Shown here: in pieces, positions 7,030-39,482 of the stretch
Layout of the letters: each line of letters starts with the position of its first letter
How positions within the stretch are numbered: the first letter of the stretch is position 1
Origin: Anaerolineae bacterium
Lineage (GTDB): Bacteria; Chloroflexota; Anaerolineae; Aggregatilineales; J027
Length of the DNA stretch: 39,482 nt
Direction: 5' to 3'
Assembly (NCBI GenBank): GCA_021463865.1
Contig: JAJTXY010000038.1
Coordinates: 1 to 39,482 of the forward strand
The notes under the pieces: model-generated
What the model was told of the DNA's origin: nothing
The model's database searches: none
The model's input: the letters and a program-made list of their open reading frames with translations, nothing else
Translations under genes and position numbers: made by a program

Positions 7030-7103
7030 TTTTGCGTCTTTTTGGAATGACCTCCGTCTTCATAAGCAAAGAATCTTCAATTTCAACGCTGAGGAGTGAG
7101 ACC

Positions 7104-21118: not shown

Positions 21119-21119
21119 T

Positions 21120-22583
21120 ATGGAGACGAACTCGGTAGCGACTTTGATTGCCCTGCCGCTGGCACTTTCTCTGGCAGCGTACATCGTTGCGCGCCTAAAT
21201 CGCAAAATTCATCCGGGGTGGCTGTCACTGCTGATTTTGGCGCTGGCGTGGGGCGTTTTTGGCGTAGCGGCCAATGAATTTGACCGGGAAGGTACACTGA
21301 CCTATCGCGTGGGCATGATGCAGCTACAACTCGACGGCCTTAGCCTGTTGACGTGCGGCGCAATTCTGACACTGGGTACGCTGACGGTCATCTACTCGCT
21401 GGATTATATGGCTGAGGAAAGCGCGGCGGACAAATATTATGCCCTCGTGTTGCTACTGCTTGGCACCATGATGGGGTTGGTTTGCACCCGCGATTTGTTT
21501 AATGTGTGGGTTTGGTTCGAGGCGATGGCGATTTCGACCTTATTTTTGGTGGCGTTTTATCGTGAACAGCTGGCCTCGCTGGAAGCTGGGGTCAAGTATA
21601 TTGTACAAAGTGCGCTTGGGTCGGCGTTTATCCTGTTGGGCATTGCCCTCGTACTGGCCGAAACAGGTACTTTGGATTTACAAGAAATCGCCCAATTGAA
21701 CCAAGATTCGGCGGTGTTGTGGGCGGCGGGGGGACTGTTTATCGCCGGATTTGGGGTCAAGATGGCGCTCGTGCCGTTCCATACGTGGCTGCCGGATGCC
21801 CATGCCCAAGCCCCCAGTGGCATCAGTGCCTTGCTGTCCGGGTTGGTCATCGAAGTGGCACTCATCGCCTTGCTCCGCGCCCTAACCTGTGTCGCATTTT
21901 CGTGGGGAACGCTCCTGATTGTCTTTGGTGCAGTCAACATGCTGGTCGGGAATTTGCTGGCCCTCCGCCAGACCCAGATAAAACGCCTGTTGGCCTATTC
22001 TAGCCTTAGCCAGATGGGGTATATGGTGTTCGGGATTGGCATCGGTATTTATGCACAAACACTCAATGGGTTTGAGGGCGGGTTGTTCCATTTCTTCAAC
22101 CACGCCCTGATGAAAGGCCTCGCATTTTTGGCGGTTGGCGCTTTTATCTACAGCCTCGAAACGCATCAGCCTCTCCAAATCAGTGATTTGCGTGGTGCAT
22201 CGCGGCGCTATCCGTATATAGCATTGGCGCTCAGTTTAGCCTTGTTGGGTCTAGGTGGGCTACCACCGCTGGCCGGGTTTATGTCAAAATGGCAGATTTT
22301 TGCAGCGGGCATCGCGGTCCATGAGCCATTGATTACCTTGCTGGTCATCTTTGCAGCGCTGAACAGTGTTTTGTCGCTGGCCTACTATGCCCCCATTATC
22401 AATGTGCTCTATTCCCGGCAGGCCCAAGTTGAAATGGCGCAGGGTCGTACTGTCCCACCCATGATGGGGCTGTCTTTGTTGGTGTTGTCGGTGGCGATTG
22501 TGGTCATCGGTGTGTATCCGGGGCTACTGCATGGTGCGCTTGAACCAGCCGCCCGCGTCCTGTTAACCGCGTTTGGAGAGTGA
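21120..22583 (+). CDS. Antiporter-like subunit (NuoM/N, MrpD, MbhH-like)
   Basis: A 487-residue second antiporter-type membrane subunit. Key segments are FNVWVWFEAMAISTLFLVAF (intramembrane Glu), GVKMALVPFHTWLPDAHAQA (Lys and the PFHxWLPDAH motif, about 220) and QIKRLLAYSSLSQMGYMVFG (about 285). Like the preceding subunit it belongs to the ion-pumping arm. Two such subunits in one operon suggest at least two translocation paths, more than in the simplest hydrogenases of this group. ATG 21120 directly follows the previous stop; the frame is open further upstream but without support. Confidence 0.9.
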   Translation: METNSVATLIALPLALSLAAYIVARLNRKIHPGWLSLLILALAWGVFGVAANEFDREGTLTYRVGMMQLQLDGLSLLTCGAILTLGTLTVIYSLDYMAEESAADKYYALVLLLLGTMMGLVCTRDLFNVWVWFEAMAISTLFLVAFYREQLASLEAGVKYIVQSALGSAFILLGIALVLAETGTLDLQEIAQLNQDSAVLWAAGGLFIAGFGVKMALVPFHTWLPDAHAQAPSGISALLSGLVIEVALIALLRALTCVAFSWGTLLIVFGAVNMLVGNLLALRQTQIKRLLAYSSLSQMGYMVFGIGIGIYAQTLNGFEGGLFHFFNHALMKGLAFLAVGAFIYSLETHQPLQISDLRGASRRYPYIALALSLALLGLGGLPPLAGFMSKWQIFAAGIAVHEPLITLLVIFAALNSVLSLAYYAPIINVLYSRQAQVEMAQGRTVPPMMGLSLLVLSVAIVVIGVYPGLLHGALEPAARVLLTAFGE

Positions 22584-22584
22584 G

Positions 22585-22911
22585 ATGAACGATTTGTTGT
22601 TGCTACCGCCGATTGCGTTTCTGCTTTATCTTGGTCTGGTATGGGGTCTATCAACGCTTGGGCGCTGGCTGGCTCCTGAAAAAGCGTCCGTCAATAAATC
22701 GAGCAGCTATGCCAGCGGGGAAGCACCCGCCACCCGTCCGGCGGTTCCCGGTTATCGCCCCTTTTTTGTGGTGGCACTGTTTTTTGCTATCGTGCATTTG
22801 GGGGTATTGGTAGCAGGTACAAGCACGCTGACCCCGATGGCGGGCATTTTTCTGACTGGGGTGATGGTGTCGTTATTGGCGCTGATTTTAGAGTCGAGGG
22901 AGGCCGCTTGA
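22585..22911 (+). CDS. NuoA-like small membrane subunit
   Basis: A 108-residue protein with about three membrane spans: one at the N-terminus, then a polar loop holding SSSYASGEAP, then two at the C-terminus. The YxSGE loop is the counterpart of the conserved loop of NuoA (ND3), which senses the quinone/hydrogenase site in complex I. The length and gene position (before the NuoB-like gene) fit. ATG 22585 begins 1 bp after the previous stop, behind GGAG. Confidence 0.78.
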   Translation: MNDLLLLPPIAFLLYLGLVWGLSTLGRWLAPEKASVNKSSSYASGEAPATRPAVPGYRPFFVVALFFAIVHLGVLVAGTSTLTPMAGIFLTGVMVSLLALILESREAA

Positions 22912-22912
22912 G

Positions 22913-23383
22913 ATGACATGGCAGCATATGGTAGATGAGTTTAGAACATGGGCAAGAGTCAATTCGCCTTGGGTGGTGCATTTTAACACGGGGTCGTGCA
23001 ACGGGTGTGATATTGAAATCTTGGCAACCCTGACCCCACGTTATGACGCTGAGCGTTTTGGGGTCAAGCTGGAAGGCAGCCCACGCCACGCCGATGTGTT
23101 GATTTGCACCGGGCCTGTTACGCGGCAAGCACGGGATCGCCTGCTGCGCGTGTATGAACAGATGCCGGAGCCAAAATTTGTGATTGCAGTGGGGTCATGT
23201 GCGATTTCCGGTGGAGTTTTTCAGGGGTGCTACAACGTCATCGGGCATATTGATGAGGTGATCCCGGTAGATGTGTATATTCCCGGTTGTCCCCCCCGCC
23301 CCGAAGCCATCCTCGACGGCGTAGTAAAGCTGTTGAGCCACCTCAAAGACCCCGTGCTTGAAACCATGCAGGAGGCAGGTTGA
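22913..23383 (+). CDS. Group 4 [NiFe]-hydrogenase small subunit (MbhJ/NuoB-like)
   Basis: A 156-residue Fe-S protein. Four Cys can bind the single [4Fe-4S] cluster nearest the active site: Cys29 and Cys32 (GSCNGCDIE), Cys96 (VGSCAISGG) and Cys126 (PGCPPRPE). The SCNGCDIE form is that of Ech, Mbh and Hyc hydrogenases, not of the complex I subunit, whose cluster site has adjacent cysteines. It passes electrons from the ferredoxin subunit to the large subunit. The next gene starts at the A of its stop codon. Confidence 0.92.
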   Translation: MTWQHMVDEFRTWARVNSPWVVHFNTGSCNGCDIEILATLTPRYDAERFGVKLEGSPRHADVLICTGPVTRQARDRLLRVYEQMPEPKFVIAVGSCAISGGVFQGCYNVIGHIDEVIPVDVYIPGCPPRPEAILDGVVKLLSHLKDPVLETMQEAG

Positions 23384-23829
23384 TGGATACACAAGAGGCA
23401 TTAAAAAGCGCCGAAACATTGCTGACCGACTATCCCAGCACGCGCCCTGAAGAGAACCGTCTGGATGTGACGCTTGCGCCGGAAAACCTGAGCGCGGTGG
23501 TCAGTAATCTAGTCGCCGCACGCTGGGGCTATCTGATAGCGATTACAGGGCTGGATCAGGTTGCGCTGGGTCAACTGGAAATTCTATACCATTTTGGCGC
23601 GGGGGCGGCAGTCCTAACGCTGCGAATCCCGCTGCCGCGAATTCCAATTCCAAGCGTGGAAAGCATTTGTCCCATCATCCCCTATGCCAATGTCTATGAG
23701 CGCGAATTGGGCGAAATGTTTGGGGTGGAATTCAGGAACAGCCCTAATACAGATCGGCTGTTTTTGCCAGATGACTGGTGCAGCGATGTTTATCCGCTCC
23801 GTAAGGACGCCGTACTAAACGAGGAGTGA
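23383..23829 (+). CDS. NuoC-like hydrogenase subunit (30-kDa family)
   Basis: A 148-residue soluble subunit related to NuoC and to the N-terminal half of HycE. The family signature appears near the end as VYERELGEMFGVEFRNSPNTD cut at about 105-125, with LPDDW following. It sits against the small and large subunits on the cytoplasmic side and has a structural role. It is a separate protein here, as in Mbh and Ech, not fused to the large subunit as in HycE. ATG 23383 is preferred, with GGAGG upstream; the stop and start share bases with the neighbour. Confidence 0.85.
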   Translation: MDTQEALKSAETLLTDYPSTRPEENRLDVTLAPENLSAVVSNLVAARWGYLIAITGLDQVALGQLEILYHFGAGAAVLTLRIPLPRIPIPSVESICPIIPYANVYERELGEMFGVEFRNSPNTDRLFLPDDWCSDVYPLRKDAVLNEE

Positions 23830-23830
23830 A

Positions 23831-25021
23831 ATGGATATGGATACTACTGTACCGCAACGTTTTGTCGTACCAATTGGGCCGCAGCATCCCGCCCTCAAAG
23901 AACCCGGTCATTTTGAATTTACGGTGGATGGTGAACAAGTCACAGGGGCATCCGTCCGGTTGGGGTATGCCCATCGCGGCATCGAAAAAGCCACTGAGGG
24001 GCGTAACTGGGTACAAAATCTTTACCTCTTGGAGCGTATTTGCGGCATTTGTTCACATGTCCACGCCACCGCCTATTGTTTGGGCGTGGAAAAATTAGCT
24101 GGCGTGACAGCCCCGCCCCGCGCCCAAGCGATTCGCCTGCTGGTGGCTGAATTGGAGCGCATTCACAGCCATTTGTTGTGGTTAGGCGTGGCCGCGCATG
24201 AAGCGGGTTTCGATACCCTCTTTATGTATTCGTGGCGTGACCGCGAAACCGTGATGGATATTTTGGAAGCCCTGACGGGTAATCGGGTGAATTATTCAGC
24301 CAATCTGCTCGGCGGAGTCAAATTTGATCTCACCCCTGAATTAACCGATCAGATTTACGCGGGGCTTGAGCTTTTGGAGGAGCGTACCCATCAATATGTG
24401 GATGTGGTCACGTCGGACGCAACCCTGCTGCAACGCACTCGTGGCGTGGGCGTTACCACTCGTGAGCAGGCGGAGGAGTTGGGTCTGGTGGGACCAACCG
24501 CGCGGGCATCGGGGGTGGAACGGGATATTCGTGCCGAAGCGCCCTATGCCGCTTACTCTGACTTTCCGGTGAAGGTCGTGACAGCAACCGCAGGCGATTT
24601 GGAAGCGCGTTTTGTGGTGCGGTTGCAAGAGTTATTTGAAGCGTATCGCCTCATTCGTGCCGTACTGGAAAAATTACCCCCCGGTGATTTGCAGGCCCGA
24701 ATGCCACGTAAAATTAAGCCTGCCGAGACCATTAGCCGCGTCGAAGCGCCACGTGGGGAACTGTTCTATTTTATCAAAAGCAATGGCACCGATCAGCCAG
24801 AACGCATCAAAGTGCGAACCCCGACCTTGTGTAATCTAGCCTCGGTCTGTGTGCTGGCGATAGGCAGCCAACTGGCGGATGTGCCAATGATCCTAGCGGG
24901 GGTTGATCCGTGTTTTTCCTGTAATGATCGCATGGTGACGGTGTATTCCGGCGACACGGATCATACCCAGTGGACATGGAAACAGTTGCGACAATATGGC
25001 ATTGATTATTATCGAAGGTGA
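23831..25021 (+). CDS. Group 4 [NiFe]-hydrogenase large (catalytic) subunit
   Basis: A 396-residue catalytic subunit that reduces protons (or oxidises H2). All four nickel-iron ligands are present: Cys71 and Cys74 in ERICGICSHVHA, and Cys361 and Cys364 in DPCFSCNDR. This separates it from complex I NuoD, which lacks them. The C-terminal motif is followed by 29 residues that should be removed after Arg367 once nickel is inserted, as in HycE. The protease gene at the end of the operon fits this. The N-terminus (FVVPIGPQHPALKEPGHF) is typical of the family. The whole complex resembles ferredoxin-dependent, ion-pumping Mbh. Confidence 0.93.
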   Translation: MDMDTTVPQRFVVPIGPQHPALKEPGHFEFTVDGEQVTGASVRLGYAHRGIEKATEGRNWVQNLYLLERICGICSHVHATAYCLGVEKLAGVTAPPRAQAIRLLVAELERIHSHLLWLGVAAHEAGFDTLFMYSWRDRETVMDILEALTGNRVNYSANLLGGVKFDLTPELTDQIYAGLELLEERTHQYVDVVTSDATLLQRTRGVGVTTREQAEELGLVGPTARASGVERDIRAEAPYAAYSDFPVKVVTATAGDLEARFVVRLQELFEAYRLIRAVLEKLPPGDLQARMPRKIKPAETISRVEAPRGELFYFIKSNGTDQPERIKVRTPTLCNLASVCVLAIGSQLADVPMILAGVDPCFSCNDRMVTVYSGDTDHTQWTWKQLRQYGIDYYRR

Positions 25022-25023
25022 AG

Positions 25024-25947
25024 ATGAACGCCATTCAAGATTTGCTCACCCTAATGTTTTTCCCCGGTGGCTTGTTCGTGCTGGCGCTGGGTATGAGTTA
25101 TGAGTGGATAGACCGCAAACTAATGGCACGGGTACAAAATCGTGTTGGCCCACGCTGGTTTCAGCCCTATGCCGATATTGCCAAACTCCTTGTCAAAGAG
25201 GAAGTGATTCCGGCAGACAGCAACCGCCTGCTATTCATTGCCTTGCCCATCTTGGCACTGGCAGGGGCATTGACCGCCGCACTCTATGTGCCGCTGGCGG
25301 GGTTCGACCCATTGTACAGCTTTAAAGGTGATTTGATTGTGACGCTCTACCTGTTGAGCCTGCTTACCGTTTGCACCGGGCTGGCGGGAGCAAACACGAC
25401 TGATCGCTTTTCATTGGTGGGGGCGACCCGCACGTTGACCCAATTGTTTTCGTATGAAGCTCCCTTCCTGTTGGCGATGCTTGGCCCAGCGGTGGCGGCA
25501 CGCAGTTGGCAGATCAACGAGATTATTGCGGACGCTGATGGGCAATGGCTGTTGATTGTCCAGCCCGTTGGTTTTGTGGTGGCCTTGATTGGGCTGCTCG
25601 GCAAGCTGGAAATCGCGCCATTTAACGCGCCGGAAGCCGAAACCGAAATCGTCGCGGGGGCACTGACCGAATACAGCGGACGAGGCTTGGCCTTGTTTCG
25701 ATTGGGCCGGCATGTTGAACTGGTCGTGGGGCTAACGATGGTCGCGGCGTTTTACATGGGCGGGGTCAATGGACTGCCGTTGTTTATTCTAAAAACCCTG
25801 CTGCTGCTCCTGATCCTAGTGGGGATTCAATCACTGGTAGCCCGATTACGGATTGATCAGACGGTTGGGTTATGGTGGCGCTGGGGTGTGCTGTTGGTGC
25901 TGGCTCAATGGCTGGCGCTGGTCATTTGGGAAGGAGTACAGGCATGA
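25024..25947 (+). CDS. NuoH-like membrane anchor subunit (MbhM/EchB/HycD-like)
   Basis: A 307-residue membrane protein with about eight spans that anchors the catalytic arm and links it to the ion path. Recognisable stretches are ARVQNRVGPRWFQPYADIAKL cut near residue 35-55, TDRFSLVGATRTLTQLFSYE (about 125) and the charged loop LEIAPFNAPEAETEIVAGALTE cut near 200, rich in Glu as in NuoH. ATG 25024 follows the large subunit stop by 2 bp. Its end overlaps the ferredoxin gene by 4 bp. Confidence 0.9.
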   Translation: MNAIQDLLTLMFFPGGLFVLALGMSYEWIDRKLMARVQNRVGPRWFQPYADIAKLLVKEEVIPADSNRLLFIALPILALAGALTAALYVPLAGFDPLYSFKGDLIVTLYLLSLLTVCTGLAGANTTDRFSLVGATRTLTQLFSYEAPFLLAMLGPAVAARSWQINEIIADADGQWLLIVQPVGFVVALIGLLGKLEIAPFNAPEAETEIVAGALTEYSGRGLALFRLGRHVELVVGLTMVAAFYMGGVNGLPLFILKTLLLLLILVGIQSLVARLRIDQTVGLWWRWGVLLVLAQWLALVIWEGVQA

Positions 25948-26369
25948 AACGTCATACCCTATTGCAATATGCCATTCGGTCACTCTTTCGGCGGACAGCA
26001 ACACAGCGCTATCCTGCGGAACGGACACCCACACCCGAACGCTTACGTGGTACACTCCATTGGAACCCCGACGGCTGTACCGGATGCTGTTTATGTAGCA
26101 AAGAATGTCCCGCCAACGCGATTGAGATTATCACCATTGACAAGGCCGCCAAGCAGTTTGTCGCACGTTATCACGCGGATCGCTGCATTTATTGTGGGCA
26201 GTGTGTGATCAATTGTCGTTTTGGCTGCCTAACGATGTCGTCTGAGGAATGGGAGAATGCCGCGCTCCAAAAACAGGCTTTCACAGTCTATTATGGAGAT
26301 GTACCCAATGTCGAACGAGTCTTGGAAGGATTTGTTACACAAGATTCTGCATCCAACTCCCCCGCCTGA
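25944..26369 (+). CDS. Two-cluster ferredoxin subunit (MbhN/EchF/NuoI-like)
   Basis: A 141-residue subunit with two [4Fe-4S] sites: CTGCCLCSKECP (about residues 45-56) and CIYCGQCVINC (about 81-91), each with the C-x2-C-x2-C-x3-C spacing. It accepts electrons from soluble ferredoxin and passes them to the small subunit. No NADH-binding genes are present, so ferredoxin is the probable donor. ATG 25944 lies within the previous stop (ATGA) behind AAGGAG. A long upstream extension of the frame overlaps the NuoH-like gene and was discarded. The 3' end overlaps the protease gene by about 60 bp. Confidence 0.9.
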   Translation: MKRHTLLQYAIRSLFRRTATQRYPAERTPTPERLRGTLHWNPDGCTGCCLCSKECPANAIEIITIDKAAKQFVARYHADRCIYCGQCVINCRFGCLTMSSEEWENAALQKQAFTVYYGDVPNVERVLEGFVTQDSASNSPA

Positions 26370-26832
26370 CCGTCCCCTAAGAACCGCGATTGTGGGGATT
26401 GGGAATGTAATGTGCCGCGATGACGGGGTGGGGGAACTAATTGCCACACGCCTATCAGTGCGGTTGGCGGGATGCTACACTGTTCAGGTTATCGCCGCCG
26501 GAATAGCTCCTGAAAACTGTACTGGGTTATTACGGCGGTTTGAACCTGATCTGGTCATTCTCATTGATAGTGCGCGTTTTGATGCACTGCCGGGCACAGT
26601 GCGCTGGATAGTGCCTGAAGACATTGAGGGCGTAAGCGCTTCTACCCATACCCTGCCGCTTTCCGTGTTGGCAAATTATCTCGAAACAACCCTCCACTGC
26701 CACATCGGATTACTAGCTATCCAACCCCTTGATGTATCATGGGGGGAGGGTATTTCGTTGCCTGTTCAGATTGCGGCAGATGCACTTATTGAAGAACTTG
26801 TGGAGACTTTGTATCAAGACACGCTCGGTTAG
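26308..26832 (+). CDS. Hydrogenase maturation protease (HycI/HyaD family)
   Basis: A 174-residue nickel-dependent endopeptidase that trims the C-terminus of the large subunit. The fold starts with AIVGIGNVMCRDDGVGELIA (Asp of the family's GxGNxxxxDDG motif; here about residues 27-45). LVILIDSARFDALPG carries the second metal ligand Asp. The third ligand region is STHTLPLSVLANYL with a conserved His. The expected metal ligands are thus all visible. ATG 26308 has GGAG 9 nt upstream; the frame is open to 26257. It is the last gene of the operon. The hyp genes needed for the Fe(CN)2CO centre must lie elsewhere. Confidence 0.9.
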   Translation: MSNESWKDLLHKILHPTPPPDRPLRTAIVGIGNVMCRDDGVGELIATRLSVRLAGCYTVQVIAAGIAPENCTGLLRRFEPDLVILIDSARFDALPGTVRWIVPEDIEGVSASTHTLPLSVLANYLETTLHCHIGLLAIQPLDVSWGEGISLPVQIAADALIEELVETLYQDTLG

Positions 26833-30929: not shown

Positions 30930-32108
30930 TTATGCCCCTACTTGGTAACTTGCCATCAAAATGCGGCTGACTTCTGGACGTGTAAATTCTGTGGGCAGCA
31001 TCTCACCGCGCGACAACATCTCCCGTACCTGTGTACCACTTAAGGCGATATGGTCGTCTTTACCATGTGGACAGGATTTGAGGCTGACCACACCGCCACA
31101 CTTTTTACAGTAAAAGGTATGTTCAAAAAACAGCGGGGTAATGCCGATTTCCTCTGGTGTGAATTGGTCAAAGATGTGATGGGCATCATAGCTGCCATAA
31201 TAATTGCCAACCCCCGCATGATCCCGCCCCACAATAAAATGAGAACAGCCATAATTCTTGCGGGCAATGGCGTGGAAAATGGCCTCACGTGGGCCAGCAT
31301 ACCGCATCGCAGCCGGGAATGCGCTCAAGACCACGCGATTCAGCGGATAGTAGTGGTTGACAATCGCCTGATAACTTGCGACACGCACCGCTGCCGGAAT
31401 ATCATCCGATTTGGTTTCCCCTACCAGTGGATGAATCAATAGACCGTCCACGATTTCCAGTGCCGTCTTTTGAATATATTCATGAGCACGATGAATCGGA
31501 TTACGGGTTTGGAAACCGACTACCCGCCGCCAGCCCCGTTCGCTGAAGATGGCCCGTGTTTCCGAGGGTGTGAACCGAATATCAGGAAATTCTTCATTAA
31601 CACGCTGGGGTAAATTGATGACATGCACATCACCTCCCAACAGCACCGATCCTTGTTTATACAGACGTGCTACGCCGGGATGGGCCACTTCCGTTGTACG
31701 ATAGACCTGCTGTGCCTCGACCTGTGGGTCATAGGTGTATTTATCGCTGATGTCCAAAATCGCCAGCAGACGGGTTGCCCCATGTACCTGCTCAGTCAGT
31801 GCGGCAGATTGCCCAATCTTCAAATTTTCGGCAAGGGTCTCATCTACGGCCAGCGTCACCGGGATTGACCACGCCAGCCCATTCGCAAGGTGCATGGTCT
31901 GAACCACTGATTGATAATCAGCCTGATTCATGTATCCCGATAGCGGACTCAGTGCCCCCACTGCGATCATTTCGAGGTCAGCCAAATTTAGATCATTGAG
32001 TGGAATTTGGGGCAGGGTGGCGGCGCGTTCAAGGGCGACTTCACGTTCAGCCCCATCCAAAAGACGATTGACGAGTGTGCCTCCGTGCGGGGCAATGAGT
32101 TTAGACAT
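30930..32108 (-). CDS. sat: Sulfate adenylyltransferase (ATP sulfurylase)
   Basis: A 392-residue single-chain ATP sulfurylase that makes APS and PPi from sulfate and ATP. Active-site motifs are FQTRNPIHRAHE (QxRN and HxxH) around residues 198-209 and the downstream VGRDHAGVGNYYG. A CKKCGGVVSLKSCPHG segment (about 320-335) gives the Cys/His zinc-type site of many bacterial forms. The length is normal. It is the last gene of the sulfate operon and overlaps the APS kinase gene by 8 bp. Confidence 0.95.
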   Translation of the reverse strand: MSKLIAPHGGTLVNRLLDGAEREVALERAATLPQIPLNDLNLADLEMIAVGALSPLSGYMNQADYQSVVQTMHLANGLAWSIPVTLAVDETLAENLKIGQSAALTEQVHGATRLLAILDISDKYTYDPQVEAQQVYRTTEVAHPGVARLYKQGSVLLGGDVHVINLPQRVNEEFPDIRFTPSETRAIFSERGWRRVVGFQTRNPIHRAHEYIQKTALEIVDGLLIHPLVGETKSDDIPAAVRVASYQAIVNHYYPLNRVVLSAFPAAMRYAGPREAIFHAIARKNYGCSHFIVGRDHAGVGNYYGSYDAHHIFDQFTPEEIGITPLFFEHTFYCKKCGGVVSLKSCPHGKDDHIALSGTQVREMLSRGEMLPTEFTRPEVSRILMASYQVGA

Positions 32109-32655
32109 GATAAGCGGCCTCCTTGACCGGAATCAACTGGCGAGTTTCCAGATAGGCCAAAATCTCCCCAATACTTTCTTGTAGGCTCTGGCGATCCGTA
32201 TTCACCTCAATTTCGGGGTTAACGGGGGCTTCATAAGGGTCATCAATTCCGGTGAAATTTTTGATTTGCCCGGTCATCGCTTTGGCGTACATACCCTTTA
32301 CATCACGGTCAATACACGTTTGCAGCGGGGCATTGACATACACCTCAATAAAATTGGTCGTCTCTTGGCGCACTTTGTCGCGGGTGGCTTGATAGGGCGA
32401 GATAAACGAGGCCAGCACCCCAACGCCGTTCCGCGAAAGCAGTTTAGCGACAAATGTCACCCGTTCGATGTTTTTGTCGCGGTCTTCTTTGCTAAAACCC
32501 AAATCGCGCGTTAGGCCTTCGCGCACCGTATCGCCATCCAGCCGTTCAATGTGTAGACCCCGCTGCCGCAATTCTTGTTCCAACGCAACGGCGATGGTTG
32601 TCTTACCCGCGCCGGATAGCCCTGTTAGCCACAATGTAAAACCTTGCTTACTCAT
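32101..32655 (-). CDS. cysC: Adenylylsulfate (APS) kinase
   Basis: A 184-residue kinase that phosphorylates APS to PAPS. The P-loop is WLTGLSGAGKTT (about residues 9-20), DGDTVREGLTRDLGFS is the APS-contact region, and the lid is KGMYAKAMTGQIKNFTGIDDPYE cut near 125-145. All family residues are in place. It overlaps cysH by 4 bp and sat by 8 bp, so the three are tightly co-translated. Its presence beside an APS-type reductase is notable and discussed in the findings. Confidence 0.95.
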   Translation of the reverse strand: MSKQGFTLWLTGLSGAGKTTIAVALEQELRQRGLHIERLDGDTVREGLTRDLGFSKEDRDKNIERVTFVAKLLSRNGVGVLASFISPYQATRDKVRQETTNFIEVYVNAPLQTCIDRDVKGMYAKAMTGQIKNFTGIDDPYEAPVNPEIEVNTDRQSLQESIGEILAYLETRQLIPVKEAAYHV

Positions 32656-33356
32656 GATTCTTGTTTAGCTCCTGTTGATGTATGAATACCACATTCAGTT
32701 TTGGCGCTGCTCACCCAACGCCCAGAACGACCATCCGCACCAGCCGTGACGGGTTGAGTACAGGTCGGGGTGTGGCAGCCAATACTGGGATAACTCTGGT
32801 CGTGTAAAGCGTTATAGGGCAGGTCATAGGTATGGATGTACAGCCAAATCATCTCCTCTGTCCATGTGGCAAAAGGGGAAAGTTTGACATTTTGATGTTT
32901 GGTGTCCCATGAAATAATGGGGGTTGAACCGCGTCCAGTTTGGTCACGCCGTAAACCTGTAATCCACGCCGGGTAATTGCCCAAAACAGCATCGAGCGGG
33001 GCGACCTTGCGTATGTGACAGCATTGATCCGGGTCGCGTTCCCACAGCCCCTCCCCATATTCAGCCGCCTGCTGCTCAACCGTTAGCGCAGGGCGTATAC
33101 GGGTCAAGTTGAGATTAAAACGCTGCTCGACCTCATCCATCAAAGCATAGGTTTCTGGGAATAACAAACCCGTATCGAGCGTGAGCACTGGCGTTTGGGG
33201 AGCAATTTCAATCAGCATATGCAGTGTGGCGATCCCCGTTGGCTGAAAACTGGTCACGACGGATAAACCTGCGCCAAATTCTTCTACAGCCCATTTGAGG
33301 ATGTGTTGAGGTGCGGCGGTCTCAAAATCTTGGTTTAGGTGTTCAAAATCGAGCAT
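32652..33356 (-). CDS. cysH: Assimilatory APS/PAPS reductase with Fe-S motif
   Basis: A 234-residue thioredoxin-dependent reductase that forms sulfite and AMP (or PAP). The nucleotide-binding segment begins SVVTSFQPTGIATLHM. The catalytic Cys is in the C-terminal ECGIHT. Two Cys pairs, CCHIRK (about residue 110) and CHTPTC (about 193-198), are the [4Fe-4S] ligands found in APS reductases and absent from the enterobacterial PAPS enzyme. So APS is the likely substrate, although some Fe-S types, such as that of Bacillus, also accept PAPS. AGGAGA lies just before ATG 33356. It begins 2 bp after cysA. Confidence 0.94.
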   Translation of the reverse strand: MLDFEHLNQDFETAAPQHILKWAVEEFGAGLSVVTSFQPTGIATLHMLIEIAPQTPVLTLDTGLLFPETYALMDEVEQRFNLNLTRIRPALTVEQQAAEYGEGLWERDPDQCCHIRKVAPLDAVLGNYPAWITGLRRDQTGRGSTPIISWDTKHQNVKLSPFATWTEEMIWLYIHTYDLPYNALHDQSYPSIGCHTPTCTQPVTAGADGRSGRWVSSAKTECGIHTSTGAKQES

Positions 33357-33358
33357 GG

Positions 33359-34432
33359 TTAGTTCTCCTGAAATGGCAGCAAGTGAAAATCTTGGATGCC
33401 GACGAATACTTCTTGACCGGGTATCGCACCCAATGAACGAACTTTTTCGGGACTCAACAGCACATGCAGTGGCTTGGCAGCGGAAATATCCATCAGTTGC
33501 ACGGTAGCTCGTTCCAACGACCCAGCAAAAGTGATATTCGAGATACGCCCCCGCCCGATCAACGATCCGCTAATTAGCTCTTGCTCAAGGGCCAAATCAA
33601 TTTCTTCAGGGCGGCATACCAGATGCACGTCCTGATTTTGCAGGTGTTCGGTTTCCGACGGTGCAGGTAGCGACACCTGACCCACATAGACGGTTTTCCC
33701 GTTGCGTCGTGCATTTAATACGTTGGCAGTACCCAAGAAATTGGCCGTATAGAGGTGTTTGGGGCGGCGATACAGTTGGGCAGGTGTCCCAACTTCAAGC
33801 AGTACCCCCCGGTCAATAATGCCAATCCGGTCAGCCAGTTCAAAGGCTTCCTCTTGATCGTGCGTCACCAAAATGGTTGTGATCTGGAGTTGTTGCTGAA
33901 TCTCGCGTAGGCTGTGGCGCAGTTGACCACGAATTTTGACATCCAAGGCGCCGAACGGCTCATCTAGTAATAATACGCTTGGATTTGGAGCGAGGGCGCG
34001 TGCAAGGGCCACCCGCTGCTGTTGACCGCCGGAAAGTTGCGCTGGCATCCGCCCACCTAAGCCATCCAGCCCAATCATGTTCAATAATTCCGTTACACGT
34101 GCCTGACGATCTTTGCGATGGGCTTTGCGAACCTTCAGGCCAAATTCGATATTGGCGGCGGCATTCAAGTGGCGGAACAGCGAATAATTTTGGAAGACAA
34201 AACCTGTATCCCGTTGCTGTGGCGACAGGCGGGTGACATCCCGCCCATTGAGTTGAACACTGCCACTGTCTAACGAAGTTAGCCCCGCGATAATCCGCAA
34301 AATGGTGCTTTTGCCGCTGCCACTCGCCCCCAAAAGCACAAACAACTCCCCCTGCTCAATTTCCAAACTCACATCATTGACGACAGTCTGCCGTCCATAT
34401 TTTTTTACCAGATGATCCAGTTGAATGGTCAT
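33359..34432 (-). CDS. cysA: Sulfate/thiosulfate ABC importer ATPase
   Basis: A 357-residue ATPase. Walker A GASGSGKST (about residues 36-44), Q-loop FVFQNYSLFRHL, signature LSGGQQQRVALARAL, Walker B LLLDEPFGALD, and switch His in LVTHDQEEAFELADR are intact. The QNYSLFRHL stretch is characteristic of CysA. A TOBE-type regulatory domain fills the last about 115 residues. ATG 34432 is preferred because GAGGGTGAA lies directly upstream and it starts 1 bp after the cysW stop. The TTG at 34453 would overlap cysW. Confidence 0.94.
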   Translation of the reverse strand: MTIQLDHLVKKYGRQTVVNDVSLEIEQGELFVLLGASGSGKSTILRIIAGLTSLDSGSVQLNGRDVTRLSPQQRDTGFVFQNYSLFRHLNAAANIEFGLKVRKAHRKDRQARVTELLNMIGLDGLGGRMPAQLSGGQQQRVALARALAPNPSVLLLDEPFGALDVKIRGQLRHSLREIQQQLQITTILVTHDQEEAFELADRIGIIDRGVLLEVGTPAQLYRRPKHLYTANFLGTANVLNARRNGKTVYVGQVSLPAPSETEHLQNQDVHLVCRPEEIDLALEQELISGSLIGRGRISNITFAGSLERATVQLMDISAAKPLHVLLSPEKVRSLGAIPGQEVFVGIQDFHLLPFQEN

Positions 34433-34433
34433 T

Positions 34434-35243
34434 TCACCCTCGTTGACGATCAAGACGCCATTTTAGTAGACTCATGACGAGTAAAATCAAGACAGAGACA
34501 GCCCCCAAGACTAATGAAATGCTGTAGGCTCCGATGCGGTTGCGGTCATGCAAAGCGCGATAGACGTACATCGTGGCGGTTTCGGTTTTGCCCTCAATCC
34601 CGCCGCTGACAACGGCCACCGCGCCGAACTCACCCAATGAACGAGCCAATGTCAGCACCACGCCATAAATCACCCCGACCCAAATCCCCGGCATGACGAT
34701 CTGCCAGAAGGTACTCCATCTGCTTGCCCCCAACGTATAGGCCGCTTCTTCGGGTTCAATCGGCAGGCTTTCCAGAACGGGTCCAACTTCACGTGAGACA
34801 AACGGCAGGGCGACAAATGTTTTGGCAAGGATGATGCCGGGGTAGGCGAATACAATCGCAAATGTGGTTGGCTCCAGCCAGCCATTGCGCCCAAACAGCA
34901 CAATCATGGTATAACCCGCGATGACGGGTGAGAATACAAATGGAATATCCACCAATGCGTTGACGAGTGTGCGGCCATAAAAACGCTGCCGGGCCAGCAC
35001 CCACGCGATAATCACCCCAAAAACCGTGTTCAAGAGGGTCGCAATAATCGAAAATTCAAAGGTGATGCGCAGGGCGTGTTGAACACCGTCATCTTGTAGG
35101 GTGTCTTTGATTGGCTGCCACCCGCGCTCAATGGCCCCGTCGGAAATTGCATAAATCGGGGCGATAATCAGCGCCGCTGCATAGGCCAGCACGAGCAAAA
35201 TCAACAGGATTTGCAGAGGATTTTTCGGCCCAATTTCACGCAT
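34434..35243 (-). CDS. cysW: Sulfate ABC importer permease CysW
   Basis: A 269-residue inner-membrane permease with six spans. The EAA coupling loop is EEAAYTLGASRWSTFWQIVMPG (about residues 170-190, cut here). LARSLGEFGAVAVVSGG is the sulfate-permease hallmark. It pairs with CysT to form the channel. ATG 35243 is chosen, giving an 8-bp overlap with cysT behind GAGGGCGGAAA. The longer frame to 35318 runs into cysT. Confidence 0.93.
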   Translation of the reverse strand: MREIGPKNPLQILLILLVLAYAAALIIAPIYAISDGAIERGWQPIKDTLQDDGVQHALRITFEFSIIATLLNTVFGVIIAWVLARQRFYGRTLVNALVDIPFVFSPVIAGYTMIVLFGRNGWLEPTTFAIVFAYPGIILAKTFVALPFVSREVGPVLESLPIEPEEAAYTLGASRWSTFWQIVMPGIWVGVIYGVVLTLARSLGEFGAVAVVSGGIEGKTETATMYVYRALHDRNRIGAYSISLVLGAVSVLILLVMSLLKWRLDRQRG

Positions 35244-36093
35244 GTTTCCGCCCTCGCAAAAAGTCAATGGATACCGTAATCGTGAAGGCCACCGCCAATA
35301 ACACCAATGAAATTCCACTGGCGGCCTGCATATTGCCGGATTCGACTTTGGTATAGATATAAACCGTCGCGGTCTGTGATTTCATCGGAATGTTGCCTGC
35401 CACAATGATGATTGAGCCAAATTCACCCAAACCCCGTGCAAAACTGAGCAGTGCCCCGGCGATGATGGCAGGTCGGATAGCCGGAAAAATGATGCGCCAG
35501 AACGTTTCCCAATTGGATGCCCCCAACGTTTGAGCAGCTTCTTCTTGATTCAAATCCAACTGCATCAAAACGGGCTGCACCGTGCGGATGACAAATGGGT
35601 AGCCGACAAACAACAGCGCCAACATAATGCCGGGCGGCGCGAATAAGATGCGATGCCCCGTATTTTCCTCAATAAAACTGCCGACAATCGTTTGTGGGCC
35701 ATACAGCAGCACCAGCATAACCCCTGTAACCAGCGTCGGTAGCGCAAAGGGTAAATCAATAAAGGCATTAAAAATAGCCTTGCCGGGGAAACGATATTTG
35801 ACCAGCACATAAGCGGTCAGCGTTCCCATTATCGTGTTTATCACTGCCGCCGTAGCCGCCGTCCGCAGCGATAATTTGAGGGCACTATAGGCGATGCGGT
35901 TGTTGATGCTCTCCCAAAAAACGGTCAACCCGTGCTCAAAGCCTTTATAGCTGACGACGATAATCGGTACGGCGATGAGGAGGAACAAATAGCTGACGGC
36001 CAGCAAACGCAGACTCCATTTGCCCCATGCAATGGCTGGGAAAGAAAAGGGACGGTCCCAAAGTCCACCCTTATTCAACGTTTTAACGGTCAT
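35236..36093 (-). CDS. cysT: Sulfate ABC importer permease CysT (CysU)
   Basis: A 285-residue permease partner of CysW with six spans. Landmarks are FIDLPFALPTLVTGVMLVLLYG (cut; about residues 120-140), the EAA loop EEAAQTLGASNWETFWRIIFPA and FARGLGEFGSIIIVAGN. The two permeases share about the same coupling loop but differ enough to be a true hetero-pair. Its start overlaps the binding-protein stop by 4 bp. Confidence 0.93.
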   Translation of the reverse strand: MTVKTLNKGGLWDRPFSFPAIAWGKWSLRLLAVSYLFLLIAVPIIVVSYKGFEHGLTVFWESINNRIAYSALKLSLRTAATAAVINTIMGTLTAYVLVKYRFPGKAIFNAFIDLPFALPTLVTGVMLVLLYGPQTIVGSFIEENTGHRILFAPPGIMLALLFVGYPFVIRTVQPVLMQLDLNQEEAAQTLGASNWETFWRIIFPAIRPAIIAGALLSFARGLGEFGSIIIVAGNIPMKSQTATVYIYTKVESGNMQAASGISLVLLAVAFTITVSIDFLRGRKHA

Positions 36094-37133
36094 TCACCCG
36101 CAACCTCGGCAATTAATCCAGTGAAACGACCTTCATCACCAAACAGTTCCTTACGAACCACGCTCCATCCACCAAATTCCTCAATCGTGAACAGGTCTTC
36201 AATTTCTGGGAATTTCGCGGCCAATTCTTCATCGGCGGCGACTTCTGCCATCACTTCTTTATTGACCGGACGGAAGCCATTTTTAACAAAAATACGTTGG
36301 GCTTCGGCGCTCTGGGCAAAAACTACAAACGCCTCGGCCACTTCCCGCGTACCATGTTCATCTACGTAGGCATCTACGACGGCGATGGGGTTTTCAATCA
36401 GGATGGTCGAAGTGGGATAAATGACGCTATACGTGTTGCCCGCTGCTTCACCCGCAAAGATTTCGTTTTCATAGGTGATGGCGACATCCCCAATCCCATA
36501 TTCGAAGGTCAAAATGCTCTCACGTCCATCACGGTCAAAAACAACCACATGCTTCAATAATTTGGTCAAAAATTCCGTCGCGCCCTCGTCATCCACCGCG
36601 TAACCTTCCACGAATCCACGTCTGGCCGCACCATAGGCCGCCAAAATATTCCATTGAGCGCCTCCGCTCGTCGCAGGATCAGGCGTAATGACTTCCACAT
36701 CCCCTGCGAGGTCGTCCCAATCTTCAATTTCCAATGGATTGCCTTCCCGCGTCGCCAATATCACCACTGAATTGGTCACAAAACCGTTATAGTTCGCTTT
36801 CCAGTCGTGGGTGATGAGTCCTGCATCTACCAGACGGGTCACGTCGCTTTCGACGGATAGGGCTACGATGTCGGCTTCAAAACCACCCGCTACGGCCCGC
36901 GATTGAGCGCCGGATGCTTGGTAGGATTCTTGCACGATAACGGTCTGTCCGGTTTTTTCTTTCCAATAGGCTTGGAAGGCGGGAATGATATCCTCATAGG
37001 CTTCGCGGGGAACGGCATAGGCCGCAAGGGTAATCGTAACGGTCTCTGGTTGATCTTGCGCTTGAGTCGGCACGCCAAACGGAATTAAGCTGAGAAACAG
37101 GGCCAGAATAAGCAGGGTCTTACGGGTTTTCAT
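36090..37133 (-). CDS. Sulfate-binding protein of the ABC importer
   Basis: A 347-residue exported binding protein. A Sec signal with basic start MKTRKTLLILALFLSLIPFG ends at a likely cleavage site after TQAQ/AQA near residue 25. There is no lipobox Cys. The mature part matches Sbp/CysP: SYQASGAQSRAVAGGFEADIV cut near 70-90, LSVESDVTRLVDAGLI, ITPDPATSGGAQWNILAAYG and GIGDVAITYENEI, the family's sulfate-contact stretches. It is the first protein of the sulfate operon. The ribosome site (GAGG, about 10 nt upstream) lies inside the Cys-rich leader frame 37120-37254, which overlaps its first 14 bases. Confidence 0.93.
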   Translation of the reverse strand: MKTRKTLLILALFLSLIPFGVPTQAQDQPETVTITLAAYAVPREAYEDIIPAFQAYWKEKTGQTVIVQESYQASGAQSRAVAGGFEADIVALSVESDVTRLVDAGLITHDWKANYNGFVTNSVVILATREGNPLEIEDWDDLAGDVEVITPDPATSGGAQWNILAAYGAARRGFVEGYAVDDEGATEFLTKLLKHVVVFDRDGRESILTFEYGIGDVAITYENEIFAGEAAGNTYSVIYPTSTILIENPIAVVDAYVDEHGTREVAEAFVVFAQSAEAQRIFVKNGFRPVNKEVMAEVAADEELAAKFPEIEDLFTIEEFGGWSVVRKELFGDEGRFTGLIAEVAGE

Positions 37134-37254
37134 GTTGTTTTATCCTCTTTTTTCGTCTAGGGTCAAAATAGCGGCAACCATCGCAACAACAGCCAGTCGT
37201 CGTTTGGCTGCTACACATACAGTTACAGGGTTGACACATCTCGTAAGAACGCAT
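37120..37254 (-). CDS. Cys-rich 44-residue leader peptide overlapping the sulfate-binding gene
   Basis: A minus-strand frame begins with ATG at 37254 (GGATAGGG just upstream) and ends with TAA at 37120, after the start codon of the sulfate-binding gene (37133). It encodes 44 residues with eight Cys (7, 10, 12, 14, 22, 23, 24, 27): MCQPCNCMC, then GCCCDGC, then a basic tail (RRKKR). Ribosomes translating it would pass over the ribosome site of the downstream gene. When charged Cys-tRNA is scarce, stalling at the triple Cys codons (about 37191-37183) would alter access to that site. The model follows poly-Cys leader frames described for mycobacterial sulfur genes. A small metal-binding protein is the alternative. 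No homologue is known to me. Confidence 0.65.
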   Translation of the reverse strand: MRSYEMCQPCNCMCSSQTTTGCCCDGCRYFDPRRKKRIKQHENP

Positions 37255-37299
37255 GAATCCCTATCCTTTCAAAAAAGAGTGATTGATGAGCCAGACAAC

Positions 37300-37330
37300 A
37301 AAAAAGCCGCCCCAGATTTGGGAACGGCTT
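37300..37330 (-). terminator. Intrinsic terminator in the leader of the sulfate operon
   Basis: On the minus strand AAGCCG (37330-37325) pairs with CGGCTT (37309-37304), and an inner CCC/GGG pair closes a 6-nt loop. Six T follow (37305-37300). It lies 46 bp before the Cys-rich leader frame. It could end the transcript of the 178-residue gene upstream, or act as an attenuator of the sulfate operon. Confidence 0.85.
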
Positions 37331-37426
37331 GGTGATTTCCTCACTTGTGCGCTGCCAATTAAATCAAGGCAGCTTTAGCCCTCCAACATCCGGGTACGTC
37401 AACAGACTGTTGTTAGGACAACAACA
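37326..37426 (-). promoter_or_regulatory. Structured leader before the terminator, possible riboswitch-like element
   Basis: On the minus strand a 7-bp hairpin (TGTTGTT 37426-37420 in complement sense with 37414-37408), a 6-bp hairpin GCTGCC/GGCAGC (37373-37368, 37356-37351) and GTGA/TCAC (37344-37341, 37335-37332) precede the terminator. GGCT (37380-37377) can pair with AGCC (37329-37326), which is the 5' arm of the terminator, so an alternative antiterminating fold is possible. It does not match a SAM riboswitch or T-box that I recognise. No confident promoter was found in 37450-37550. Confidence 0.35.
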
Positions 37427-37550
37427 CATGGCGCAATGGGTGGAGGTAAATAATGTTCGACTCATAAAATTTAAGTTACCCTGCCTATGGAAAAAACACA
37501 AGAGTTGCTTTGGTGAAATTTGACAATCAAAACACTAGGCGGTTAATTGC

Positions 37551-38087
37551 TTATTCCTTCAGATAGCTCTCAAAACCTAGTTTCTTTAAGGCTTTGAGTG
37601 TCAATTCCTCCATATCGTCACGGGCATAATAAAAGCGGACAGAGTTTTTGAAATCTCGGTTTTCGGTCATGTTATACAAATTGCCACGTTGATTTTCTTC
37701 AACACAAAGCAGGGGGTCTACCTCAAACACATAGCGCGTTCTGTAGAGTAAACAGCGGCGGTCATCAGGATTTTTGGGCCTCCCAAACATCTGCTCATAA
37801 AAGGCAAAAATCCCATCCTCTTGGGTCAACTTGGTGGTGAAATCAGGCAAATCACGTATCTTCCCTTTCTTATAGGGATGATATTCAGCGAGTTTGGTAA
37901 GGGAGATTTCGGCTTGTGTATCAGTAAGGGGTGAAATCGTGAGGCGTCCCTTTACTGTTGCGTTGACGACCTGCCCTCCGCCATCTACCATTTTCAGAGA
38001 ACCATTTGCATTGATGTCGAGGAAATGCAGATAATCATACCAGTGCGGGTTTGCACTAAGTACGGTGGGCAATTTTAGGAATGTCAT
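37551..38087 (-). CDS. Unknown 178-residue protein
   Basis: I do not recognise this protein. It is soluble, without signal or membrane spans. The N-terminal half looks beta-rich (NANGSLKMVDGGGQVVNATV, TQAEISLTKLAEYHPYKKG). A mixed half follows with FYEQMFGRPKNPDDRRCLLY and a C-terminal helix (EELTLKALKKLGFESYLKE). Two isolated Cys are not a metal motif. It lies between cobA and the sulfate operon in the same direction, about 90 bp after cobA. The terminator at 37300-37330 lies between it and the sulfate genes. A link to sulfur metabolism is only positional. Confidence 0.7.
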   Translation of the reverse strand: MTFLKLPTVLSANPHWYDYLHFLDINANGSLKMVDGGGQVVNATVKGRLTISPLTDTQAEISLTKLAEYHPYKKGKIRDLPDFTTKLTQEDGIFAFYEQMFGRPKNPDDRRCLLYRTRYVFEVDPLLCVEENQRGNLYNMTENRDFKNSVRFYYARDDMEELTLKALKKLGFESYLKE

Positions 38088-38174
38088 TTCGCTGAATCCC
38101 CTTGTATTGTCAACTGTCTAGATGAATCAGTATACTATGGCAGGAGATATAGGCTGTGATATGGTTGAGGCAAG

Positions 38175-38945
38175 TCAAAACCAATCCAATCCCATATGAC
38201 GCAGGCGCGTAACCTCCCCCATCACCGTAATCGCTGGACTGGATAAGCCTGCCTCCATCACTCGACCCGCTATGGATTCAAGTGTACCCCCTACTGTGCA
38301 CTGATTAGCTGTCGTGCCCCATTGGATGCACACGGCTGGCGTTTCGGCAGAAATGCCTTCCTGTATCAATTCTCGGCAAATCTTTTCCAGATGATTGACC
38401 CCCATCATCAACACCAAAGTCCCCAAACGAACCGCAGCGGCAAGGGCAGGGTAATCAATGCTGTTCCCTTCTTTCGTTGGGTCTTCATGCCCAGTAAAAA
38501 CGGTAAAAGCGCTGGCGACATGCCGATGTGTGACCGGAATTCCGGCATAGGCAGGCACGGCAATCGCACTGGATACCCCCGGCACAACTTCAAACGGGAT
38601 ATTGAAAGCATAACAGGCCAAGCCTTCCTCCCCGCCCCGCCCAAATACAAATGGATCACCGCCCTTAAGCCGCACTACCCTACACCCCTTGCTGGCCCGG
38701 TCAATCAAAATTTGATTGATCTCCGACTGGTCAAGCCGATGTTTTTGCGGCAGTTTACCCGCGTAAATCAGTTCGGCGTCAGATCGGGTTTCCTTGAGTA
38801 ATTCCATTGGGATAAGCCGATCATAAACCACGACATCGGCTTGGCGAACTAGGCGCAGCCCTTTGACCGTAATCAAATCAGGGTCGCCGGGGCCAGCCCC
38901 CACCAAATAAACTTTCCCTACTGCTGCCGATGGCTGATTACTCAT
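38175..38945 (-). CDS. cobA: Uroporphyrinogen-III C-methyltransferase (siroheme pathway)
   Basis: A 256-residue SAM-dependent enzyme that methylates uroporphyrinogen III twice to precorrin-2, the precursor of siroheme and B12. The motifs are VGAGPGDPDLITVKG (about residues 15-29), RLKGGDPFVFGRGGEE (about 98-113), and PGVSSAIAVPAYAGIPVTHR (about 122-141). It is the single-domain form without the CysG oxidase/chelatase part. Its neighbour, with probable chelatase function, overlaps it by 8 bp. In a sulfate-assimilation locus it most likely supplies siroheme to sulfite reductase, which is not in the window. Confidence 0.93.
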   Translation of the reverse strand: MSNQPSAAVGKVYLVGAGPGDPDLITVKGLRLVRQADVVVYDRLIPMELLKETRSDAELIYAGKLPQKHRLDQSEINQILIDRASKGCRVVRLKGGDPFVFGRGGEEGLACYAFNIPFEVVPGVSSAIAVPAYAGIPVTHRHVASAFTVFTGHEDPTKEGNSIDYPALAAAVRLGTLVLMMGVNHLEKICRELIQEGISAETPAVCIQWGTTANQCTVGGTLESIAGRVMEAGLSSPAITVMGEVTRLRHMGLDWF

Positions 38946-39482
38946 TTTCTAACGCCTTTTCCAGTGTCTCCAATGCACGGCTCATCCAGAAATTGCAGGC
39001 TTCCCGACAAGGGAGGGTGGTGTAGGTGGGGGCAGCATTATCCGCCCATGTCGGCTGACAAACACACTGACCGCAAATGCGCGTGACCAAAGCTGCTTGG
39101 GTCGCTGCATCTAAACGGGTCAATTGGCGATAGTTTCCTGTTTGCCGTTCAAGTGTTGCCGCTAATGGAATGGCCTCAAAGTTGCCATTTTTATGATTAG
39201 CCCAATCCGCCAATACCCCCGGATAAATGGTCTCGACAACGGCTGGCAAATCGGAAAAATGAGGTGGCTCAATCCGCCATCCGCGCGGCAAATCCCTTGA
39301 GGTCGCCAATGGCCGGAACGGATTTTCCCGCACGATGCGGCGCAGGATTGGCAAATCGGGGATGAGTTGATAGGGGGTATCGCCCCAAACCTGTACCCCA
39401 TCCAGTGTAATTTCTAACTCTCCCAATTTCGCCCGTTTTTCGTAGGCCACCCAATCCAAAAATGCGGCATGACCGACCTTTG
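38938..39482 (-). CDS. DR2241-like Fe-S protein, C-terminal part (probable CbiX-type chelatase)
   Basis: The 3' part of a gene whose start lies beyond the window. The frame is open to position 39482 and codes for about 181 residues here. The end carries CGQCVCQPTW and LPCREACNFW: five Cys in a C-x2-C-x-C…C-x3-C arrangement, like the Fe-S domain of the Deinococcus DR2241 family. In that family an N-terminal CbiX-like sirohydrochlorin ferrochelatase domain is joined to a stabilising domain and this cluster domain. The 8-bp overlap with cobA fits a siroheme role. The chelatase domain itself is not visible, so the assignment rests on the tail and the neighbour. Confidence 0.7.
   Translation of the reverse strand, partial: KVGHAAFLDWVAYEKRAKLGELEITLDGVQVWGDTPYQLIPDLPILRRIVRENPFRPLATSRDLPRGWRIEPPHFSDLPAVVETIYPGVLADWANHKNGNFEAIPLAATLERQTGNYRQLTRLDAATQAALVTRICGQCVCQPTWADNAAPTYTTLPCREACNFWMSRALETLEKALENE

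Follow-up and report, generated by a model that had tools for sequence, protein, structure and literature searches.

Attenuators of the classical trp, his and ilv type consist of a leader ORF containing the regulatory codons, an intrinsic terminator, and an antiterminator whose formation is governed by the ribosome. Polycysteine leaderless short ORFs of mycobacteria have reportedly been described by Canestrari et al. in 2020.

According to the accessible parts of the cited articles, ilvB1 of M. tuberculosis is an example of an ilv-type attenuator (PMC13236596), and the mycobacterial polycysteine ORFs precede cysteine and sulfur genes and are elongated at a speed that is said to depend on cysteine (PMC9031893, PMC13236596, PMC9094748). 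For Actinobacteria, candidate Cys leader peptides upstream of cys operons were listed by Seliverstov et al. 2005; in the available excerpts of that paper, conserved terminator hairpins were not found at these leaders (PMC1262725). The metNIQ leader of S. lividans, which the available text of PMC8079986 lists as methionine-dependent, ends with ARCMCRRMCAF and is also Cys-rich; judged by these residues, it might sense cysteine. A study from 2010 states in its accessible sections that leader peptides had previously been known in Proteobacteria and Actinobacteria only, and adds the Firmicutes (PMC2965389). None of the literature found that names Chloroflexota evidently deals with Cys leaders; this is weak evidence, as subscription papers mostly lay outside the search and texts were seen in part.

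Architecture and conservation of the sulfate locus

The window, i.e. the whole stretch of 39,482 nucleotides analyzed here, contains a sulfate operon with sbp as its first gene, followed by genes for permease, ATPase, CysH, APS kinase, and sulfate adenylyltransferase. Within the operon, only the names of sbp and cysH are based on models. A sequence-only reading had flagged upstream of sbp a 44-codon frame with eight Cys codons, three of them contiguous, which begins behind a purine-rich ribosome site, ends 14 bases inside the sulfate-binding gene, and includes the ribosome site of that gene. All of this was confirmed on the sequence. Missed by that reading were a second Cys frame (containing CAMCCC) and a terminator, both located upstream of the flagged frame. 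The layout in 5'-to-3' direction on the minus strand is leader 1, terminator, leader 2 (the flagged frame), sbp. The features are:

30930..32108, minus strand: sulfate adenylyltransferase, sat-like, named by reading
32101..32655, minus strand: APS kinase, cysC-like, named by reading
32652..33356, minus strand: PAPS/APS reductase, cysH (NF002537 and TIGR00434 over cut-off; PF01507)
33359..34453, minus strand: sulfate transporter ATPase, cysA-like, named by reading
34434..35318, minus strand: sulfate permease subunit, cysW-like, named by reading, start uncertain
35236..36093, minus strand: sulfate permease subunit, cysT-like, named by reading
36090..37133, minus strand: sulfate-binding protein, sbp (TIGR00971, 224.9 bits versus a cut-off of 155.5)
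37120..37254, minus strand: leader 2, ORF of 44 codons with 8 Cys, 14-base overlap with sbp
37183..37191, minus strand: Cys run of leader 2, codons 22-24 (codon 22 is Arg in L011)
37304..37330, minus strand: intrinsic terminator and U tract; 37329-37311 is the modelled 3' arm of the antiterminator
37351..37373, minus strand: hairpin GCUGCC...GGCAGC over the stop codon of leader 1, with one two-sided G-C to U-A change
37364..37465, minus strand: leader 1, ORF of 33 codons, MSRTLFTSTHCAMCCCPNNSLLTYPDVGGLKLP; stop TGA at 37366-37364; Cys codons 11, 14, 15, and 16
37377..37394, minus strand: modelled 5' arm of the antiterminator, CCCGGAU GUU GGAGGGCU, inside leader 1 and invariant in all four genus genomes with sbp
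37418..37426, minus strand: UGU UGU UGU run of leader 1, codons 14-16

Leader 2 (37254-37120) translates to MRSYEMCQPCNCMCSSQTTTGCCCDGCRYFDPRRKKRIKQHENP and starts with an ATG directly behind the ribosome site GAAAGGATAGGGATTC. The ATG of sbp is at position 37133, and the sbp ribosome site GAGGA occupies positions 37147-37143. For leader 1, the ATG at 37465 was chosen as start, with an in-frame TTG further upstream; no clear ribosome site was seen. The motif TAACTT (TAATTT in L011) lies 7 nt 5' of this ATG (window 37463-37480, minus strand) and might be a -10 box, in which case leader 1 could be leaderless. Further upstream on the minus strand, an ORF of 178 residues (37551-38087), which had no match of weight in Pfam or NCBIfam, lies between the leader region and a tetrapyrrole methylase gene (38175-38945). 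The C-terminus of a DR2241/Fer4_23 protein is encoded at 38938-39480. Judging from their domains, the latter two plausibly serve siroheme formation for the reduction of sulfite or nitrite.

As far as the mycobacterial polycysteine ORFs are depicted in the partly available sources, the locus resembles them in its contiguous Cys codons, its short ORFs, and the presence of several cysteine or sulfur loci per genome. A Cys run preceding a sulfur gene is found in both leader 1 and leader 2. However, the mycobacterial system is portrayed there as translation attenuation, whereas downstream of leader 1 there is an intrinsic terminator that overlaps a predicted antiterminator; moreover, mycobacteria belong to a different phylum. 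The mycobacterial ORFs are leaderless; leader 1 might be so as well, and leader 2 has a ribosome site. With the actinobacterial leaders, as given in the excerpts of PMC1262725, the locus shares runs of Cys codons in short ORFs 5' of cys operons. In those leaders the Cys codons are close to the stop, as in several members of the order studied here but unlike leader 1. The features shared with trp, his and ilv attenuators are the leader ORF with regulatory codons, the intrinsic terminator, and a predicted competing antiterminator; different are the amino acid, cysteine, and the second Cys-rich ORF, which lies beyond the terminator and overlaps the first gene. The genes concerned (sulfate-binding, PAPS/APS reductase, and cysK loci) belong to the pathway that yields the presumed regulatory amino acid.

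Four other genomes of the genus were compared; sbp is present in three of them (93-94% identical) and absent in one. The layout is common to all four genus genomes that possess sbp. In leader 1, none of the four Cys codons varies, and the terminator stem is likewise invariant save for a loop-closing deletion in L010. Leader 2 is open in all four genomes, with one length difference of 9 nt that keeps the frame, and six of its eight Cys columns contain Cys throughout. C10 is replaced by Arg in L010 and L011, and the first residue of the run, C22, by Arg in L011. The sequence-only reading had named relatives with conserved gene order and missing leader Cys codons as evidence against its proposal: the gene order is kept, and most Cys codons, albeit not all, are kept as well.

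The variable columns at codon positions 1, 2, and 3 number 5, 3, and 5 in leader 1 and 6, 6, and 8 in leader 2 across the four genomes. No sign of codon-level selection was seen for either leader; most pairwise comparisons contain more non-synonymous than synonymous changes. In the hairpin that spans the stop codon of leader 1, one G-C pair is replaced by U-A through changes on both sides, alongside an exchange of Lys31 for Asn in leader 1, which may be a single event. The covariation score of the whole structure was equalled in 94 of 500 shuffles. Covariation is uninformative on the antiterminator because its two helices are invariant in the four sequences. Neither leader peptide had a match in Pfam or NCBIfam, and a profile of leader 2 run against its own genome yielded only itself as significant. 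An Rfam scan of window positions 36900-38200 gave sub-gathering matches only, and no gathering-score match was obtained at the leaders of L120, L125, L082, L099, and L075.

Folding with a ribosome positioned on the leaders

The effect of translation on RNA structure was modelled by stepping a ribosome footprint codon by codon along the leader, with footprint size and equilibrium being assumed. The leader RNA of the sulfate operon adopts the terminator fold when it is free or when the ribosome sits on the stop codon of leader 1; in the model, stalling at the Cys codons of leader 1 favours a mutually exclusive antiterminator. The terminator probabilities for free RNA, for a ribosome at the stop codon, and as a mean for stalling at codons 14-16 were 0.92, 0.94, and 0.25 in the window; 0.90, 0.93, and 0.02 in L009; 0.90, 0.91, and 0.02 in L010; and 0.94, 0.94, and 0.45 in L011. 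When the sequence following the Cys run was shuffled 300 times, the stall effect was matched by 1, 0, 0, and 4 shuffles, respectively. The effect is not limited to Cys codons: the terminator probability was also low at codons 9-10 in all four sequences and, in L009 and L010, at codon 20. With the ribosome at codon 23 or beyond, it again exceeded 0.9 in every sequence.

If the RNA 5' of position 37411 is removed, the structure of minimum free energy is the antiterminator, in which CCCGGAU...GGAGGGCU pairs with AGCC.UUCC...AUCUGGG. In the ensemble of a slightly shorter truncated construct, the terminator had a probability of 0.63, and 51 of 1000 shuffles were at or below this value. The energy of the antiterminator duplex was equalled in 127 of 2000 shuffles. 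These last two shuffle tests are weak, and weight was put on the position-dependent test.

For leader 2, the sequence-only reading had proposed that a ribosome stalled at the flagged Cys run frees the ribosome site of sbp. The unpaired probability of this site with a ribosome stalled at codons 22-24 was 0.43-0.48 versus 0.56 for free RNA in the window, 0.39-0.51 versus 0.58 in L009, 0.33 versus 0.33 in L010, and 0.67-0.73 versus 0.64 in L011. The model thus lends no support to the proposal, and the run itself is incompletely conserved. Exposure of the next ribosome site by stalling, as in the mycobacterial type, is therefore not predicted at leader 2.

Cys-rich frames at other sulfur loci

Within the genus, a Cys-rich short frame (...CMCSC...) precedes cysK-cysE in all four genomes; its start was chosen within a longer open frame. 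Another such frame, MNTMRQNCMCCMCEKRGR, precedes the second cysK and is identical in all four. No Cys-rich frame was found before the third cysK-like gene (0/4) or before an extra cysE-like gene (0/1). Both cysteine synthase leaders are followed by a terminator-like hairpin ending in a U-rich tract. For the second cysK, the modelled terminator probability dropped from 1.00 to 0.07-0.12 (0.11-0.20 in L128), and did so exclusively when the A site was placed at codons 11-12; the value of 0.12 at codons 10-13 was attained in 2 of 300 shuffles. As the four sequences are nearly identical, they count as one case. The cysK-cysE leader displayed no switch in the same model. A match to the SAM-I/IV riboswitch (43.2 bits versus a gathering score of 41.1) is located on contig C42 of the window's genome (L120:626-747, minus strand), downstream of the cysK-cysE pair. 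RNA control of the sulfur genes may therefore be of two kinds.

A profile of leader 1, run against 298 genomes of the class, gave strong matches (E <1e-23) in three genus genomes only, the next E-value being 0.006. Because this profile is confined to the genus, the regions 5' of sbp were scanned to find relatives, a search for short frames rich in Cys that the sequence-only reading had suggested. In the order, 154 genomes were searched and sbp was found in 28, with starts set by rule. A dense Cys frame, defined as a short frame that contains four or more Cys within 8 residues and lies not more than 350 nt upstream of sbp, is present in 14 of these 28 members, compared to 0/28 on the opposite strand; the shuffle P-value was below 0.05 in 13 of the 28. 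The 14 loci are not independent, as they are confined to 7 of 15 genera. In the window's genome, where both leaders qualify, 2% of dinucleotide shuffles yielded such a frame. Inspection by eye added L084, L085, L088, L094, and L102, which brings the number of sbp loci with a Cys frame to 19 of 28; in the other nine (L077, L079, L093, L095, L096, L097, L098, L100, and L103) none was seen by eye. Elsewhere in the class, 0 of 19 sbp loci inspected have a dense Cys frame (Fisher P 0.0002, kinship ignored). These 19 derive from 48 matches, with 18 weaker ones left out; of the 30 loci, 22 lie outside the order, and 3 were dropped due to a short upstream region. The Cys runs seen over signal peptides in L059-L061 were discarded, being Leu codons read out of frame.

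The leaders of the order are mostly dissimilar. Six genomes from two genera have leaders beginning with MHLYS in which Cys adjoins the stop; a profile of these gave strong matches only in its six source genomes among the 154. In L087-L091 and L101, the conserved MHLYS codons AUCUCUACUC are able to base-pair with GAGUUUAAGGAGA, the ribosome site of sbp, according to the folds predicted for most loci, which could constitute a translational switch. G269 has a leader with 13 Cys and G503 the leader MAPKTRCCTVCCDCLNCRCSSAW; both are followed by a terminator-like hairpin. Among 13 further leader loci of the order that were scanned, these are the 2 with such a hairpin between leader and sbp. For G269, no clear stall switch at its Cys codons emerged from the folding model. 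NCBIfam had no match for eight leader peptides from the order. Direct repeats of the TGTGACC type, spaced about 11 nt apart, occur before sbp in L077 (1320-1385), L079 (955-1000), and L005 (about 1215-1300), and presumably resemble boxes of the OmpR/PhoB family; L077 and L079 have no Cys leader at sbp.

Upstream of cysK-family genes, the threshold was reached in 6 of 20 regions and in 0/20 on the opposite strand. This comparison covered 12 genomes, chosen from the 24 sbp-bearing genomes of the order outside the genus; by eye, a leader is present in 11 of the 12. The frames have endings such as CACCCLKRGR, and in G387 a leader is present at a cysK-family gene and none at sbp.

Possible explanations for the leader frames

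That Cys frames recur at the genes for sulfate-binding proteins and cysteine synthases supports the idea of the sequence-only reading that sulfate uptake is controlled by a Cys-sensing leader, whereas the mechanism assigned to the flagged frame finds no support. A cysteine-responsive leader system at the sulfate and cysteine synthase genes is likely. For the sulfate operon, we think it rather probable that it is under ribosome-mediated transcription attenuation, with charged tRNA-Cys being sensed via leader 1. Sequence and computation show the two frames, the terminator, the alternative pairing, the conservation of these parts, and the repeated occurrence of Cys frames at sulfur loci; we infer translation of the leaders, stalling of ribosomes in them, cysteine as the signal, and any action of leader 2. 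With ample cysteine, ribosomes would cross CAMCCC and either occlude or release the 3' portion of leader 1; the terminator at 37330-37304 would then form, and transcription would end before sbp. With scarce cysteine, a ribosome would stop at the UGU codons of leader 1, and 37394-37377 would pair with 37329-37311, which comprises both terminator arms and the loop. Transcription would then proceed through leader 2 into the operon genes. Leader 2 lies beyond the terminator, and its overlap with sbp makes translational coupling of the two probable. It is unlikely to be the main switch of the operon; as a probable companion of the leader 1 switch, it may provide with its Cys codons a second, weaker gate.

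It is conceivable that control resides instead in translational attenuation at leader 2, where a stall would expose the sbp ribosome site and leader 1 with its terminator would be minor. This would fit a Cys-rich frame that overlaps sbp and is open in all four genomes, and 11 of the 13 further loci of the order lack a terminator between leader and sbp in the scan, which implies some other mechanism there. Nevertheless we regard it as improbable for this operon: accessibility of the site did not rise upon stalling in the window, L009, and L010, and rose slightly in L011; C22 and C10 vary; and the terminator has to be passed before leader 2 is reached. Leader 2 might also encode a small Cys-rich protein of the CxxC type, perhaps metal-binding, that is co-expressed with the operon, leader 1 being the attenuator. 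Its CxxC-like spacing, good ribosome site, and six invariant Cys columns are compatible with this, but we find it unlikely given that no Pfam or NCBIfam family matches, that changes between congeners are mostly non-synonymous, and that its profile detects nothing else of significance in its own genome.

If both frames were non-functional chance ORFs and the hairpin the terminator of the upstream gene (38087-37551), the lack of codon-level selection on either leader would be accounted for, and false out-of-frame Cys runs do exist over the Leu-rich signal peptides of L059-L061. Chance is nonetheless a very poor explanation for frames at 14 of 28 sbp genes of the order, compared to none of 28 on the opposite strand and none of 19 outside the order, for two further Cys frames at cysK loci in all four genomes, and for a position-dependent switch that is rare among shuffles.

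Beyond attenuation at leader 1, a wider interpretation can be offered tentatively, and we would not favour it over its negation: an order-wide regulon of cysteine leader ORFs for sulfate uptake, cysK-cysE, and the second cysK, in which mostly unrelated leaders arose repeatedly and the sulfate operon of the genus is doubly gated, by the terminator and antiterminator of leader 1 and then by the sbp-coupled leader 2. If the leaders act as proposed, attenuation by amino acid leaders would extend to a little-studied phylum, and a terminator-based cysteine attenuator would stand against the actinobacterial cys leaders, which are terminator-less in the available part of PMC1262725. Dissimilar Cys leaders at the same genes would form a natural series for the replacement of transcriptional and translational attenuation by one another. 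Scanning upstream of sulfate-binding and cysteine synthase genes could serve as a cheap finder of sulfur regulation in uncultured genomes.

Elsewhere in the window, genes on the plus strand at 19370-26832 read like a cluster for a membrane-bound NiFe-hydrogenase or a complex-I-like enzyme together with a maturation protease, and a flavoprotein-like ORF at 7017-8567 (plus strand) has the Cys-rich tail CGCDDTCCGDGVRSASCGCETSCCS.
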